A DNA stretch of 64,000 nt, from the NCBI RefSeq assembly GCF_019263705.2, contig NZ_JADQDK010000001.1, positions 1,736,001 through 1,800,000 on the forward strand, written 5' to 3'. Source of the stretch: Pseudonocardia abyssalis (GTDB lineage: Bacteria > Actinomycetota > Actinomycetes > Mycobacteriales > Pseudonocardiaceae). Numbering within the stretch: position 1 is the first letter of the stretch; every line of letters begins with the position of its first letter. The notes beneath the pieces were generated by a model. The model saw only the letters and a program-made list of their open reading frames with translations. It was not told the origin of the DNA and made no database searches. Of this stretch, positions 19,983 to 26,771 are shown piece after piece. A program made the translations under genes and the position numbers.

Positions 19983-20030
19983 GCACACGGGTCCGGCCCT
20001 GTGTGCCGGCCCCCGGAGCTGTGTGCGAGC
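19983..20030. repeat. GCACAC word-repeat hairpin between the MFS gene and mobA
   Basis: GCACACGGG at 19983-19991 pairs with CCCTGTGTGC at 19998-20007 (one bulged T), and a further CTGTGTGCGAG copy follows at 20019-20029. It lies between two rightward genes, so a terminator of the MFS gene is the simplest reading. Confidence 0.45.
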
Positions 20031-20048
20031 GGCCGTAGGATCGCCCGC

Positions 20049-20912
20049 GTGGGCACCGCAGCGGGCGCGTTCGTGCTGGCCGGGGGCCGGTCGTCGCGGA
20101 TGGGCACGGCGAAGGCCGACCTCGAGTGGCACGGGTCCACGCTGCTGCACCGGACCACGGCCCTGCTCGCCCGCGTCGTCGACGGGCCGGTGCTGGTGGT
20201 CGCCGCGCCCGGGCAGGTGCTCCCGGCGCTCCCCGACGGCGTCGGGGTCGTCGAGGACCCGGTCGAGGGGCTCGGCCCGCTGGCCGGGATCGGCGCCGGG
20301 CTCGCCGCACTCGCCGGACGCGCCGAGGTGGCGTTCGCCTGCTCCACCGACCTGCCGTTCCTGCACCCCGCGTTCGTGCGCCACGTCCTCCGCGCCGTCG
20401 TCGACGGGGTCGGCGGGGTCGGCAGGGTCGACGGGGTCGACGGGGTCGACGGGGTCGACGGGGTCGGCGGGGTCGACGTCGCACTCCCCCACGCCCGCGG
20501 CTTCCGCCAGCCCCTCGCCGCGGCCTACCGCACGTCGCTCGCGCCACTGGTCGCCTCGCTGGTCGCGGGCGGGAAGCTCCGACCCGGGATGCTCTACGAC
20601 CGGTGCACGGTCGCCGTCCTCGACGACGCCGCGCTGCTCGCCGACCCCGACGTCGCCCGTCTCGACCCCGACCTGGACTCCCTGACGAACGTCAACGCCC
20701 CCGACGACTACGCCGCCGCCCGCGCCGTCCCGGCCCCGGTCGTCCGGGTCGGGCTGCGCACGGTCCGCGCCGCGACCGTCGGCGCGCTCGGCGTCGGGGC
20801 CGTGATCCTGGACGGCCGCCGCGTGGACGACCCCCTGACCCCGCTCGCGACCGGCGACGTCGTCAGGCTTGCGGCAGGTTCTGCACGTGCTGGAACCCGA
20901 ACCGGCCCTTGA
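20049..20912 (+). CDS. mobA: Molybdenum cofactor guanylyltransferase MobA-like
   Basis: 287 residues; attaches GMP to molybdopterin to give the MGD cofactor needed by formate dehydrogenase. The nucleotide-binding motif LAGGRSSRMGTAKADL lies at 10-25, and the metal Asp is in CSTDLPFLHP (98-106). The GTG at 20049 is used. Two oddities: residues 118-143 are a (VDG/VGG)n insertion made by a 9-bp repeat, and the C-terminus runs about 60 residues beyond the usual end (NVNAPDDY), the last 50 bp overlapping the 3-prime end of the opposite formate dehydrogenase gene. Context with fdhA and fdhD fits a Mo-cofactor role. Confidence 0.85.
   Translation: MGTAAGAFVLAGGRSSRMGTAKADLEWHGSTLLHRTTALLARVVDGPVLVVAAPGQVLPALPDGVGVVEDPVEGLGPLAGIGAGLAALAGRAEVAFACSTDLPFLHPAFVRHVLRAVVDGVGGVGRVDGVDGVDGVDGVGGVDVALPHARGFRQPLAAAYRTSLAPLVASLVAGGKLRPGMLYDRCTVAVLDDAALLADPDVARLDPDLDSLTNVNAPDDYAAARAVPAPVVRVGLRTVRAATVGALGVGAVILDGRRVDDPLTPLATGDVVRLAAGSARAGTRTGP
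20400..20471. repeat. 9-bp coding minisatellite in mobA
   Basis: Eight tandem 9-bp units of GTCGACGGG or GTCGGCGGG (one GTCGGCAGG) code for repeated VDG/VGG. The reading frame is kept. Such repeats change copy number easily by slippage. Confidence 0.8.
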
Positions 20913-21999
20913 TGCACAGGTGCCCGTGCGTGACGGAGTGGTCGGCCGGGCTGGTGACGTTGACGATCGAGCCCTGCTGCACGTGCAGCTCCAGGTTGCA
21001 GCCGACACCGCAGAACGAGCAGATCGTCGTGGTGACGGTCTCCTCGTCGGGGTGCCAGTCGCCGTCGGAGCGCAGCTCGTGCTCGCGCACCGACTTCAGC
21101 GCGCCGGTGGGGCACACCCCGATGCAGTTGCCGCAGTACACGCACGCCGAATCGGGCAGCTCCGCGTTGAACTCCGTCGCGATGCGGGCGTCGAAACCGC
21201 GGCCCGCCGCGGAGATCGCGAACGTGAACTGGGCGTCGGTCCCGCAGGCGTTGACGCACTTGTAGCACATGATGCAGCGCGAGTAGTCGCGTACGTAGAG
21301 GTCGTTGTCGATCTTCACGGGCTGCGCGACGGTCTCCGCGGTGGCCCCGTCGGGCGCGTGGTGGTGCCCGGCGTGGCGGGTGTCGCGGTCGGTCGACGGG
21401 GGCGCCGGCGGCCCGTACCGCGCGGCGTCGACCCCGTACTCGGCCGTCCAGCGCGCCACGTCGGCGCTCGCCTGGCTCATGTCCGCCGAGGACGCCAGCA
21501 GCTCCAGCACCATCCTCCTGCTGTGCCGCACCTTCTCCGAATCGGTGCGCACCACCATCCCGTCCTCGACCTTCCGCGCGCAGGACGGGACCAGGACCCG
21601 CGAGTTCTCGACCTCCACGACGCACACGCGGCAGGCGTTGATCGGGTCCATGTTGGGGGCCCAGCACAGCGTGGGGGTGTCGGCCTGCGCCGGTGTGCCC
21701 TCGGCGTGCAGCGCGTCGAGGATCGTGGCGTCCTCCGGCACGCGCAGCTCGTCGCCGTCGACGGTGAGGGTGACCATCCGGCGGATCCGGCCCAGCAGCA
21801 CCGGCCCGCCGCCCGCGGCCGGGGCGCGGTCGGGCGCGACCGGATCGACCGCGGTGGGGCCGACCGGCCCCGCCGGGGCCTCACGGGACTCCGCCGCGTG
21901 CTCGCCGACCGGCGGGCCGTCGCCGACGGTGTCGGTACCGGGCACGGGCGCGCCCCCGGCGTCGGCCTCGGGCGCCCCGTCGGGGTTCGTGGTGGTCAT
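20863..21999 (-). CDS. Formate dehydrogenase iron-sulfur subunit with FdhF-type Fe4S4 domain
   Basis: 378 residues. After a Pro/Ala-rich N-terminal stretch comes a 2Fe-2S ferredoxin domain (Cys112, 123, 126, 140), then two 4Fe-4S motifs (Cys242/245/248/252 and Cys286/289/292/296), and at the end a Molybdop_Fe4S4 domain (ICSFCGVGC with Cys327/330/334 and Cys362 in HLCIKGRFG). In FdsA/FdhF proteins this last domain is directly followed by the molybdopterin domain of the same chain; here the protein stops after GRFGFQHVQN, and the matching molybdopterin part is the separate gene at 23944-25863. It passes electrons from the Mo centre to the NuoEF-like subunit. ATG overlaps the upstream stop (ATGA). 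Confidence 0.92.
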   Translation of the reverse strand: MTTTNPDGAPEADAGGAPVPGTDTVGDGPPVGEHAAESREAPAGPVGPTAVDPVAPDRAPAAGGGPVLLGRIRRMVTLTVDGDELRVPEDATILDALHAEGTPAQADTPTLCWAPNMDPINACRVCVVEVENSRVLVPSCARKVEDGMVVRTDSEKVRHSRRMVLELLASSADMSQASADVARWTAEYGVDAARYGPPAPPSTDRDTRHAGHHHAPDGATAETVAQPVKIDNDLYVRDYSRCIMCYKCVNACGTDAQFTFAISAAGRGFDARIATEFNAELPDSACVYCGNCIGVCPTGALKSVREHELRSDGDWHPDEETVTTTICSFCGVGCNLELHVQQGSIVNVTSPADHSVTHGHLCIKGRFGFQHVQNLPQA

Positions 22000-23849
22000 C
22001 GGTGCGACACCTTCCCGTTGCGCGCCCCGTCCACCGGGGTGTCGAGCAGCCCCAGCCGCAGCGCCGACTGCACCGCGGCGGGCGCGGTGTGCCCGAGCCC
22101 GCAGATCGACGCGTCCTGCATGACGCGGGCGAGATCGCCCAGCAGCGTGAGCTCCGGCCCGCGCGGGGCGCCGCGCTCCAGCCGGGCGAGCGACTCCTCC
22201 TGCCGTACCGTGCCCACCCGGCACGGTACGCACTGCCCGCACGACTCGTCGCGGAAGAACGCGGCGATCCGGCGCAGGGTGCCGACGAGGTCGGCGTCGG
22301 TGTCGAACGCCATCACCACCCCCGAGCCCAGGGTGGCCTCGATCGACCGCGATCCTTCGAGGGTGAGCACGACGTCGAGCTGGTCGGGCATGACGAACCC
22401 GCCCGCCGCACCCCCGAGCAGGATCGTGCGCAGCTCCCCGCGCAGCCCACCCGCGAGATCGAGCAGCTCGCGCAGCGTGGTGCCGAACGGCACCTCGTAG
22501 ACACCGGGCACCGCGACCGCGCCGGACAGGCAGAACAGCTTGTGACCCGTGGACCGCCCGGACCCGATCGACGCGAACGCCGGCCCGCCGATCGCGAGCA
22601 CGTCGAGCGCGTTGTAGAGCGTCTCCACGTTGTTGATCACGGTGGGCTTGCCGAACAGGCCCTTCACCGACGGGAACGGCGGCTTGTTGCGCGGCTCCCC
22701 GCGGAACCCCTCGATGGAGTTCAGCAGCGCCGTCTCCTCGCCGCAGATGTACGCGCCCGCGCCGCGGCGCAGCTCGATGTCGAAGGCGAACCCCTCGCCC
22801 ATGACGTCCTCGCCCAGGTACCCGCGCGTCCGCGCCGCCGCGATCGCCTGCTCCAGGCGGCGCGTGGCCAGCGGGTACTCGCCGCGGATGTAGAGGTAGC
22901 CGCGCTCGCAGCCGGTGGCGTACCCGGCGATGGTCATGGCCTCGATCAGCCCGAACGGGTCGGACTCCATCAGCACGCGGTCCTTGAACGTGCCCGGCTC
23001 CGACTCGTCGGCGTTGCAGACCAGGTAGTGCGGCCGCTCCGGGGCCTTCGCCACGCCGTCCCACTTGACGCCCGTCGGGAACGCCGCGCCGCCGCGCCCG
23101 GTGAGCGAGGCGTCGGTGACCTCGGTGATCACCCGCGTCGGCCCGAGCTCGACGGCCCGGCGCAGGGCCTGGTAGCCGCCGTGGGCGCGGTAGTCGTCGA
23201 GGCTGTCCGGGTCGACGACGCCGACGCGGCGCAGCAGCCGCAGGTCCGGGTCCCCCACCTGCGGGACGCTGACCGAGGCGTCGGCGAAGGCGGCGTCGGC
23301 CTCCCGTGCACGGTGCCCTGCGCCCTGGCCCGCCTCGCCGCTCACGACCCCGGACGCCACCTCGGTCACGTCAGCGGGCCGGGCCGGGGCGATCGAGAAG
23401 TCGGGCTCGCCCGCGAGCTGGAACAGCACCGCGGGGGCCCGCTCGCAGAGCCCGAGGCAGGGGCTCCGGACCACCTCGACGCCGTCCGGCCCGCCGTCGA
23501 GCGCGGAGAGGATCTCCTCCCCGCCGAACGGACCGCACGCCACGTCGTCGCACACGTGCACGACGCGTGGCGCCTGCGGCTCGGTGGCGAGCATCGCGTA
23601 GAACGTGGCCACCCCGTAGGCGTCGGCGGGCGGCACCGACAGCCGGCGCGACACGTGGTTCAGCGCACCCGGGGAGATCCACCCGACCGCGTCCATGACG
23701 GCGTGCAACGCGGGGAGCAGCAGGTGACGGCGCGCCCGGGCCGCGTGCCCGGCGTCGGCGAAGTGCGGGTCACCGGTCCCGCCCAGGACCGCGTCCACGG
23801 CGGCCCGCTCGGCGTCACTCGGCGATGCCGACGAAATACGAAGATCCAC
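21996..23849 (-). CDS. NAD-linked formate dehydrogenase diaphorase subunit (NuoE-NuoF fusion)
   Basis: 617 residues. The N-terminal NuoE-like thioredoxin fold has four 2Fe-2S cysteines (Cys100, 105, 131, 135). The NuoF-like part has the NADH/FMN motif GRGGAAFPTGVKW, CNADESEPGTFKDR, GAGAYICGEETALLNSIEG and the 4Fe-4S motif SCGQCVPCR near residue 536. This is the FdsB-type module (with the FdsG-like domain fused in front) that reduces NAD+ with electrons from formate. GTG at 23849 is preceded by AGGGAG. A 17-bp-stem hairpin separates it from fdhA, and its stop overlaps the ATG of the iron-sulfur gene. Confidence 0.92.
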   Translation of the reverse strand: MDLRISSASPSDAERAAVDAVLGGTGDPHFADAGHAARARRHLLLPALHAVMDAVGWISPGALNHVSRRLSVPPADAYGVATFYAMLATEPQAPRVVHVCDDVACGPFGGEEILSALDGGPDGVEVVRSPCLGLCERAPAVLFQLAGEPDFSIAPARPADVTEVASGVVSGEAGQGAGHRAREADAAFADASVSVPQVGDPDLRLLRRVGVVDPDSLDDYRAHGGYQALRRAVELGPTRVITEVTDASLTGRGGAAFPTGVKWDGVAKAPERPHYLVCNADESEPGTFKDRVLMESDPFGLIEAMTIAGYATGCERGYLYIRGEYPLATRRLEQAIAAARTRGYLGEDVMGEGFAFDIELRRGAGAYICGEETALLNSIEGFRGEPRNKPPFPSVKGLFGKPTVINNVETLYNALDVLAIGGPAFASIGSGRSTGHKLFCLSGAVAVPGVYEVPFGTTLRELLDLAGGLRGELRTILLGGAAGGFVMPDQLDVVLTLEGSRSIEATLGSGVVMAFDTDADLVGTLRRIAAFFRDESCGQCVPCRVGTVRQEESLARLERGAPRGPELTLLGDLARVMQDASICGLGHTAPAAVQSALRLGLLDTPVDGARNGKVSHR

Positions 23850-23875
23850 GAAGCTCCCTAGTCGACCGTGCACGT

Positions 23876-23943: not shown

Positions 23944-25863
23944 TCAGCTGCCGGCCGCCGGGAGCGTCACCGCCACCCGCTCGATGCGCACCGCCGTCGC
24001 CTTGAACTCCGAGGTCCCGGACTTGGGGTCCCAGGCGTCGTTCGTCAGCACGTTGACGTCGACCTCCTCGGAGAAGTGCGGGGTGAAGCTGGCCAGCCCG
24101 GGCCGCAGGCTCGGGTCGAACGCCACCGGCGCCTGGACCGATCCCCGCCTGCTCGTGACGCGCACGAGGTCGCCGTCGGCGATGCCGAGGGCGGCACCGT
24201 CGGCGGCGTCCATCCGCAGGGCCTCCCGGCGGCGCAGCGGAGAGGCGTACCCGCCGGTCTGCACCCCGGAGTTGTAGGCGTCGAGGACCCGGACGGTGGT
24301 GAGCCGGATCGGGAACTCGGGGGTGAGCGTGTCGACCGGCGGCACGTGCTCCACCGGCGTGAACGGCGCCGCCTTCCCCCGCGCCTCGCCGGACTCCCAC
24401 AGCCGTGCGTGCATCAGCGGCGTGCCCGGGTGGTCGAGCGTGGGGCACGGCCACTGCAGGCCGCCGAGCGCGTCGAGCCGCTCGTAGGACATCCCGTGGT
24501 GCCAGTTGAGCGACAGCGACCGCAGCTCGTCCCAGACCTGCTCGGCGGTCGGCGCACCCCAGTTCTGCCCCAGCCGGTCGGCGACGGCGCAGATGATGTG
24601 GGTGTCCGGGCGGGCCTGACCGGGCGGGTCGATCGCCTTCCGGACGCGCTGCACCCGCCGCTCCGAGTTCGTGACCGTGCCCTCGTACTCGCACCAGTCC
24701 GCCGCCGCGGGCAGCACCACGTCGGCCATGTCGGCGGTGGCGGTGCGGAAGATGTCCTGGACGACGAGGTGGTCGAGTCCCTCCAGCAGGTGCCGGGAGT
24801 GGGTGGCGTTGGCCTCGGACTCCGCCGGGTTCTCCCCGATGCAGTACAGGGCCTTCAGCTGACCGGTCTCCATCGCCTCGAACATCTGCGACAGGTGCAT
24901 GCCGGGCTTCACCGACAGTGTGGCGCCCCATGCCTGCTCGTAGCGGGCGCGCGCGACGTCGTCGCCGACGTCGTAGCCACCGGGCAGCTTGGCCGGGATC
25001 GAGCCCATGTCGCCGCCGCCCTGCACGTTGTTCTGCCCGCGCAACGGCACCAGCCCCGAGCCGTAACGCCCGACGTGACCCGTCAGCAGGGACAGGTTGA
25101 TCAGCGCGAAGACGTAGTCGGCGGCGTTGTGGTGCTCGGTGATGCCGAGGGTCCAGCAGATCTGCGCGCGGTCGGCCCTGGCGTAGGCGTGGGCCAGCTC
25201 CTTGATCAGCGCGGCGTCGACGCCGGTGATCTCCGCCGCGCGTTCCAGCGTGTACGGCTCGACCGTGGCGCGGTACTCCTCGAAGTGCTCCGTGGACCGC
25301 TTGACGAACGCCTCGTTGACCAGCCCGGCGTGGATGATCTCCCGGCCGATCGCGTTGGCCAGCGCGATGTCGGTGCCGACGTCGAGGCCCAGCCACGCGT
25401 CGGCCCACTGCGCGGTGGACGTGCGCCGCGGGTCCACCGAGTACATCCGGGCGCCGTTCTTCAGCCCCTGCAGCACGTGGTGGAAGAAGATCGGGTGGGT
25501 CTCACGCGCGTTGGAGCCCCACAGGACCAGCAGGTCGGCGTGCTCCGCCTCGACGTAGGACGAGGTGCCGCCACCCGCTCCGAACGTGGCCGTCAGACCG
25601 ACGACCGAGGGAGCGTGTCAAGTGCGGTTGCAGGAGTCGACGTTGTTGGACCCCATGACCACCCGCGCGAACTTCTGCGCGGTGTAGTTCATCTCGTTGG
25701 TGGCCTTGGAGCAGCTGAACAGGCCGAACGCCTCGGGCGCCACGCCGCGGAACCCGGCGGCGGCGCGGTCGAGGGCCTCGTCCCAGGTGGCGGGGCGCAG
25801 GACGCCGTTCTCGCGCACCATGGGCTCGGTGATCCGGACGTGACGGGGACGGCGGCGGCGCAT
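23944..25863 (-). CDS. fdhA: Formate dehydrogenase catalytic subunit, selenocysteine-containing (in-frame TGA)
   Basis: 639 codons if the TGA at 25618-25620 is read as selenocysteine (residue 82). The frame continues without change on both sides. Before it: [24 protein letters not shown]; after it: [17 protein letters not shown]. In E. coli FdhF the equivalent is NNVDCCARV-Sec-HGPSVAGL, so TGA lies exactly at the Mo-ligand position. The rest has the molybdopterin-domain motifs [24 protein letters not shown] and the C-terminal MGD-binding domain up to residue 639. ATG 25863 has GGAAGGA 6 bases upstream. The protein lacks its own Fe4S4 domain, which is in the gene at 20863. First gene of the operon, divergent from fdhD. 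Oxidises formate to CO2. Confidence 0.93.
25588..25620 (-). promoter_or_regulatory. SECIS element for selenocysteine insertion
   Basis: Directly after the UGA (25620-25618), the leftward strand has GGUCGUC at 25606-25600, loop GGUCU at 25599-25595, and GACGGCC at 25594-25588: a 7-bp stem with one U-G pair. In E. coli fdhF the SelB-binding loop is also GGUCU and also begins 18 bases after the UGA. Loop, stem and distance all agree, which is hard to explain by chance. Confidence 0.88.
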
Positions 25864-25940: not shown

Positions 25941-26771
25941 ATGATGGGCCGGCTCAGCATCCGTCGACCGGTGGTCCGGATCGGCCCGGACGGTGCGCGG
26001 CGCGAGCTCGACACCCTGGCCGTCGAGGAGCCCCTGGAGCTGCGTGTCGACGGCAAGCCGCTGTCGGTCACGATGCGCACGCCCGGCCACGACGTGGAGC
26101 TGGCCCACGGCTTCCTGCTGACCGAGGGCGTGCTCGGCAGCGCGGCCGACATCTCCACCGCGCGCTACTGCGACTCCTTCGACGACGACGGCCGCAACAC
26201 CTACAACGTCCTCGACGTGGCGCTCGCCCCGGGCGTCGAGCCGCCGGACGCGAGCATCGAGCGCAACTTCTACACGACGTCGTCGTGCGGGGTGTGCGGC
26301 AAGGCGAGCCTCGACGCCGTCCGGCTCAAGACCCGCTTCTCCCCCGCCGCCGACCCGATGACGGTCTCCCCCGCCCTGCTCAGCGCCCTCCCCGACCGGC
26401 TGCGCGCGGCACAGAAACTGTTCGACTCCACCGGCGGCCTGCACGCCGCGGGCCTGTTCACCACCGACGGCGAGCTGCTCGTCGCGCGCGAGGACGTCGG
26501 CCGGCACAACGCCGTCGACAAGGTGCTCGGGTGGGCCCTGCTCGACGGGCGGGTCCCGGCGGCGGGCACGGTGCTGATGGTGTCCGGGCGGGCGTCGTTC
26601 GAGCTGGTGCAGAAGGCGGTCATGGCCGGGGTGCCGATGCTCTCGGCGGTCTCCGCGCCCAGCTCGCTCGCGGTCGAGCTGGCCGACGACACCGGCGTCA
26701 CGCTCGTCGGATTCCTGCGCGGGGAGACCATGAACGTCTACGCGGGGGCGCAGCGGATCGCCACCGGCTGA
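25941..26771 (+). CDS. fdhD: Formate dehydrogenase accessory sulfurtransferase FdhD
   Basis: 276 residues from the first ATG; the second ATG at 25944 has better spacing (5 bases) to GGAGG at 25934-25938 and may be the true start. FdhD moves sulfur from IscS-type desulfurases to the Mo-bisMGD cofactor, needed for formate dehydrogenase activity. The persulfide-carrying CGVC motif is at residues 115-118 (counting from 25944), inside [13 protein letters not shown]; downstream [23 protein letters not shown] and [13 protein letters not shown] are all diagnostic. Divergent from fdhA with a shared palindrome. Confidence 0.96.

Follow-up and report, generated by a model that had tools for sequence, protein, structure and literature searches.

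A related genus is already known to possess an enzyme similar to the one analysed here. According to a 2020 report (PMC7176365), Actinomycetospora chiangmaiensis DSM 45062 has three selenocysteine (Sec)-containing formate dehydrogenases (FDHs), of which FDH3 was termed cytoplasmic and NAD+-dependent, was detected in the proteome and is made up of subunits 640, 614 and 316 aa long. The same report states that selenite was needed for formate removal and that the FdhA genes were analysed by bSECISearch. Our search for literature on Sec-containing FDHs of Pseudonocardia returned only PMC7176365 and work on Methylocystis. Here we analyse an FDH gene cluster within a 64,000-nucleotide stretch of the Pseudonocardia abyssalis genome (the window), the catalytic gene of which contains an in-frame TGA (Table 1).

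More distant systems provide further points of comparison. FdhF of Escherichia coli is a single chain, and an unpaired U in the fdhF hairpin is important for binding by E. coli SelB. The SelB-bound SECIS of Moorella thermoacetica fdhA has an uninterrupted stem with a C-G pair closing the GGUCU loop, and it is not known to contain the unpaired U. Sec is also encoded by UAG in Geodermatophilus, a case that did not turn up among the papers listed by our literature search. PMC10778597 mentions UAG/UAA recoding.

Table 1. Features of the FDH cluster, in coordinates of the window
Feature	Coordinates	Strand	Evidence
fdhA, FDH catalytic subunit (molybdopterin), 639 aa + stop	23944..25863	-	PF00384 2e-66, PF01568 3.3e-24
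NuoE-NuoF fusion, 625 aa from GTG, diaphorase subunit (NAD(H)/FMN)	21996..23873	-	PF01257, PF01512, PF10531, PF10589
Iron-sulfur subunit, 378 aa: 2Fe-2S + 4Fe-4S domains, C-terminal Fe4S4 domain PF04879	20863..21999	-	Domain search of 20911-21966
fdhD, formate dehydrogenase accessory sulfurtransferase	25941..26771	+	PF02634 2.1e-71; NF001943 396 bits, cut-off 269
UGA selenocysteine codon (almost certain reading), Mo-ligand position, fdhA codon 82	25618..25620	-	91/133 related loci TGA here, 42/133 TGC/TGT
SECIS hairpin, 7-bp stem + GGUCU loop, GGUCGUC-GGUCU-GACGGCC, 19 nt	25588..25606	-	Part of MFE structure

Organization of the FDH cluster

The cluster comprises three genes on one strand, with fdhD divergent from fdhA. 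A Pfam search placed PF00384 on residues 10-429 of FdhA, across the internal TGA. Against TIGR01591, the Fdh-alpha equivalog, FdhA aligned with model positions 52-672 (2e-187), and its score of 624.3 bits lies below the cut-off of 666.25 bits. Of 148 confirmed loci the best 80 were kept; among these, the best match to the window locus was L024 from Pseudonocardia, with 91% identity, and loci of other Actinomycetospora displayed 73-84% identity.

FDH3 of A. chiangmaiensis has a short, Sec-containing FdhA of 640 aa, vs 639 aa here, and FdhD is present in both genomes. Compared by published sizes, the beta and gamma subunits are of 625 and 378 aa here vs 614 and 316 aa in FDH3 (PMC7176365). The two organisms belong to different genera, and three Sec-FDHs are reported for A. 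chiangmaiensis, whereas only one of the six PF00384 matches in the present genome, fdhA of the cluster, contains an internal TGA. The first-pass annotation had held that SECIS elements are little described in actinomycetes, a statement weakened by the publication of this similar FDH together with a bSECISearch analysis and selenium dependence (PMC7176365).

Conservation of the in-frame UGA

The TGA is the single internal in-frame stop of its kind in fdhA. To either side of it the reading frame is uninterrupted, with 557 further codons downstream, and the motifs NNVDSCNRT and HAPSVVGL flank it in the same frame. The first-pass annotation had assigned this TGA to the Mo-ligand position between two flanks in one frame, and the coordinates proved exact to the base. 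It had also expected gene calling to break the gene in two; indeed, a table-11 ORF listing splits fdhA into pieces of 104 aa and 510 aa, which for annotation means that the two ORFs almost certainly represent one selenoprotein gene.

Altogether 134 loci were examined, 133 of which cover the codon (L059, a fragment, does not). These 133 consist of the window itself, 79 of the 80 loci taken from a contig collection (the best 80 of 148 confirmed), 29 loci from a family sample and 24 from a class sample, both samples having been drawn evenly from larger groups. The copy of the window, L104, was excluded as a duplicate, and the same species may recur across the two collections. In one sample, eight of the 38 listed matches fell outside the set (one fragment and seven at 38-40% identity), including G122, in which a TGA may lie at this codon. 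A TGA found in G124 was rejected as a Sec codon, as it is the ordinary stop of its gene.

The question of whether relatives have Cys or Sec at this codon was answered by the presence of both, with TGA in 91 of the 133 loci and TGC or TGT in 42. A decayed downstream frame in TGA-bearing relatives, which the first-pass annotation had named as evidence against its proposal, was not observed; 546-587 open codons follow the TGA in 91/91 genes.

Two loci of the set deserve separate mention. L067, on a contig titled as a Streptosporangiales MAG, bears two FDHs, one of the Sec type and another of the Cys type, located around 4699 (+) and 12088 (-). L096, on a contig titled as a Klebsiella pneumoniae MAG, bears a related FDH with 65% identity and probably derives from a mislabelled bin.

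The hairpin following the UGA

A 7-bp stem begins 11 nt past the UGA, and 18 nt separate the UGA from the GGUCU loop on top of it, exactly as the first-pass annotation had described. Folding of the region after the UGA, which it had proposed as a check, gave a divided result: the MFE fold of 43 nt includes the 7-bp hairpin, but its energy is unexceptional (-13.9 kcal/mol, shuffled sequences averaging -14.13; z = 0.08). Stability did not exceed that of shuffled sequence, with an equal or better fold in 96 of 200 shuffles, and Rfam returned zero matches across the window at gathering thresholds. When fdhA was recoded synonymously at its own codon usage, a 7-bp stem with GGUCU appeared in 273 of 20,000 trials.

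Comparison of the related genes revealed at least six contiguous stem pairs together with GGUCU in 91/91 TGA genes vs 0/42 Cys genes. The stem was of six bp in 58 TGA genes and of seven or more in 33. The Cys genes are an imperfect control, as nearby residues differ too; synonymous randomisation with each gene's own usage is the cleaner one, and 952 of the 45,500 sequences randomised in this way had both stem and loop. The 91 TGA loci are related by descent and contain 62 distinct 45-mers, and the 6-bp core is missing from the 45-nt MFE structure in 14 of the 91. The Gly codon within the loop is GGT in 91/91 TGA genes vs 649 of the 5714 Gly codons in the rest of those genes. Stem pair 2 is unbroken throughout the TGA genes (U-A in 51, U-G in 27 and C-G in 13) and broken in 18 of the 42 Cys genes. 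Replacement of U-A by C-G at this pair turns Val into Ala on one side and Thr into Ala on the other, and such a residue-changing exchange is expected if selection acts on pairing. The hairpin is thus beyond chance by its position and conservation, and not by its folding energy. The consensus from the 91-gene set is GUCGYC-GGUCU-GRCGRC, starting 12 nt past the UGA, and is usable to find more members in high-GC genomes.

The first-pass annotation had classified the element as an E. coli-type SECIS. As in E. coli fdhF, the UGA lies at the same active-site place and GGUCU begins at index 21 counted from the U of the UGA, a spacing that was checked on annotated fdhF. That classification is borne out by the loop and the 18-nt spacing, and not by the stem: the MFE structure of E. 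coli fdhF leaves the U at index 17 unpaired, whereas a C faces a G there in 91/91 TGA genes. The hairpin resembles the M. thermoacetica fdhA SECIS, with the phylum and SelB differing between the two. No mention of a SECIS bulge was found in the accessible portions of PMC4513850 or PMC10778597.

Selenocysteine machinery and its co-occurrence with the UGA

To the first-pass annotation, the presence of selA, selB, selC and selD was a check of the whole proposal, and all four were found in the genome (6.3-Mb, 99.39% complete, 3.43% contamination), each above its curated cut-off. The tRNA-Sec, with anticodon TCA, scored 75.1 bits (gathering cut-off 47) and lies ~2 Mb from fdhA, and selD, selA and selB adjoin one another some 6 kb beyond it. 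Profile search of the genome gave 387.1 bits for SelA and 387.8 bits for SelD. SelB scored 257.5 bits against a cut-off of 242.25, with the model match limited to positions 2-339 of 581, and its winged-helix domain PF09107 was recognised separately at the C-terminus. The C-terminal winged-helix part of SelB binds the SECIS. Among 14 control genomes, SelB exceeded its cut-off in two, SelD in two, SelA in one and tRNA-Sec in five. The tRNA-Sec by itself is not decisive, because 5/14 control genomes pass its cut-off vs 1/14 for SelA.

Among genomes with an FDH of the cluster type, tallied by hand, SelA exceeded its cut-off in 13 of the 14 that have TGA vs six of the 35 that have Cys (2/12 in the family sample and 4/23 in the class sample; Fisher p = 1.2e-6). 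G172, the sole TGA genome lacking a SelA match, is 80% complete and in 450 contigs. The six genomes in which SelA is over cut-off yet the FDH is of the Cys type (G280, G302, G355, G374, G126 and G141) may therefore contain another selenoprotein.

The first-pass annotation had regarded selenoproteins as uncommon in actinomycetes. This view is contradicted by our samples: SelA was above cut-off in 103/150 sampled family genomes and 121/394 sampled class genomes, so the Sec trait is common in the family and class as sampled. Symbiobacterium has since been reclassified out of Actinobacteria. It supplies 12 of the 19 proteins in the Actinobacteria count of PMC1794560, which names Actinobacteria as one of three phyla rich in selenoprotein families.

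Proposed mechanism and alternative explanations

From the gene order, the domains, the position of the UGA, the conserved hairpin and the presence of selA, selB, selC and selD, all of them observed, the cluster can with very high confidence be taken to encode a cytoplasmic, NAD+-linked, Mo-dependent FDH with a Mo-ligand Sec specified by UGA and a SECIS. The fdhA UGA is almost certainly read as Sec, directed by a bacterial SECIS. We infer Sec insertion, the metal, the electron path and the substrate from known families. By this analogy, on arrival of the ribosome at the UGA, codon 82 of fdhA, SelB carrying Sec-tRNA-Sec(UCA) would bind the GGUCU-loop hairpin, so that Sec would be delivered with no termination. 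The Sec would be a ligand of Mo in a bis-MGD centre, and FdhD would provide sulfur to the cofactor. Electrons from formate would travel along Fe-S clusters carried by the iron-sulfur subunit, a separate chain, to the NuoEF-like subunit, where NAD+ would be reduced.

If fdhA were a pseudogene, the TGA arising by nonsense mutation or sequencing error, a table-11 ORF listing would break it at the TGA just as it does. This explanation is extremely improbable, given that the TGA recurs at the exact codon in 91/133 loci ahead of downstream frames of 546-587 codons, and that the genome has the complete set of sel genes; it was rejected on the conservation of the TGA and of the downstream frame. Near-cognate suppression would instead place an amino acid such as Trp or Cys, and not Sec, at the UGA, and the hairpin would then have arisen as a side effect of constraint on the protein and its codons. 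The strong conservation of the protein around the site and the ordinary folding energy speak for it, but constraint of that kind yields the stem and loop in only 952/45,500 synonymous randomisations, the stem and loop are missing in 42/42 Cys genes, and SelA accompanies the TGA in 13/14 genomes, all of which leaves suppression very improbable.

The UGA might also double as a regulated stop, with an 81-residue product having its own function at low selenium. Recoding of the E. coli fdhF UGA in vivo is 30-40%, so a truncated product is to be expected, and RF2 is a weak competitor at that codon (PMC4513850). Here, however, such a product would end at the active-site residue, and none of the features noted in this analysis points to a separate role for it. 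A regulated stop of this sort seems exceedingly unlikely.

Division of the catalytic subunit

In the FDH that we take to carry Sec, the alpha subunit is divided between two genes. The Fe4S4 domain usually forms the N-terminal part of the catalytic chain; in the Pfam search of the cluster, PF04879 was found only in the iron-sulfur subunit, two genes downstream of fdhA. Consistently, positions 1-38 of TIGR01591 match the C-terminus of that separate subunit (30.2 bits), and the remainder of the model, from position 52, matches FdhA.

The same arrangement was observed in the related loci. The Fe4S4 motif is missing from the fdhA frame in 91/91 TGA genes. Where a TGA locus offers 4 kb or more of sequence downstream (63 loci), a separate downstream gene ending shortly past the motif is present in 62, L075 being the exception; in the 28 TGA loci with less than 4 kb of flank, a separate Fe4S4 gene is visible in six and not in 22. 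Five fused Cys homologues (L129-L133, ~40% identity) have the motif in the frame of the catalytic domain. In the remaining 37 Cys loci the motif never lies in the fdhA frame (0/37), and L087, the only one of them with enough flank, shows a separate Fe4S4 gene. This FDH is consistently divided between an Fe4S4 domain and a Mo domain.

FdsA-like NAD-dependent FDHs, in which the alpha subunit is fused, share the NuoE/NuoF and Fe-S modules with the cluster, whereas in the five fused Cys loci L129-L133 the Fe4S4 motif lies in the catalytic frame, and here it is separate. E. coli FdhF likewise differs, as the Fe4S4 domain here is on another gene. The separate location of this domain is the less-described feature of the enzyme: we found no literature report of a separately encoded FDH Fe4S4 domain, a weak negative given the poor coverage of subscription journals.

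We judge the chances to be even that the cluster represents a distinct subtype, namely a Sec-FDH with its proximal Fe4S4 on the diaphorase-side iron-sulfur subunit and an actinobacterial GGUCU SECIS with an uninterrupted stem. If so, electrons leaving the Sec-Mo site would follow a path built from two polypeptides, and SelB would have to recognise a hairpin that is devoid of the unpaired U of E. coli fdhF. The split alpha subunit offers a testable point on the assembly of NAD-linked FDHs. Finally, the end of the cluster is occupied by an ORF (20001-20912, +) which by eye resembles a MobA-type molybdenum cofactor nucleotidyltransferase (LAGGRSSRMG).
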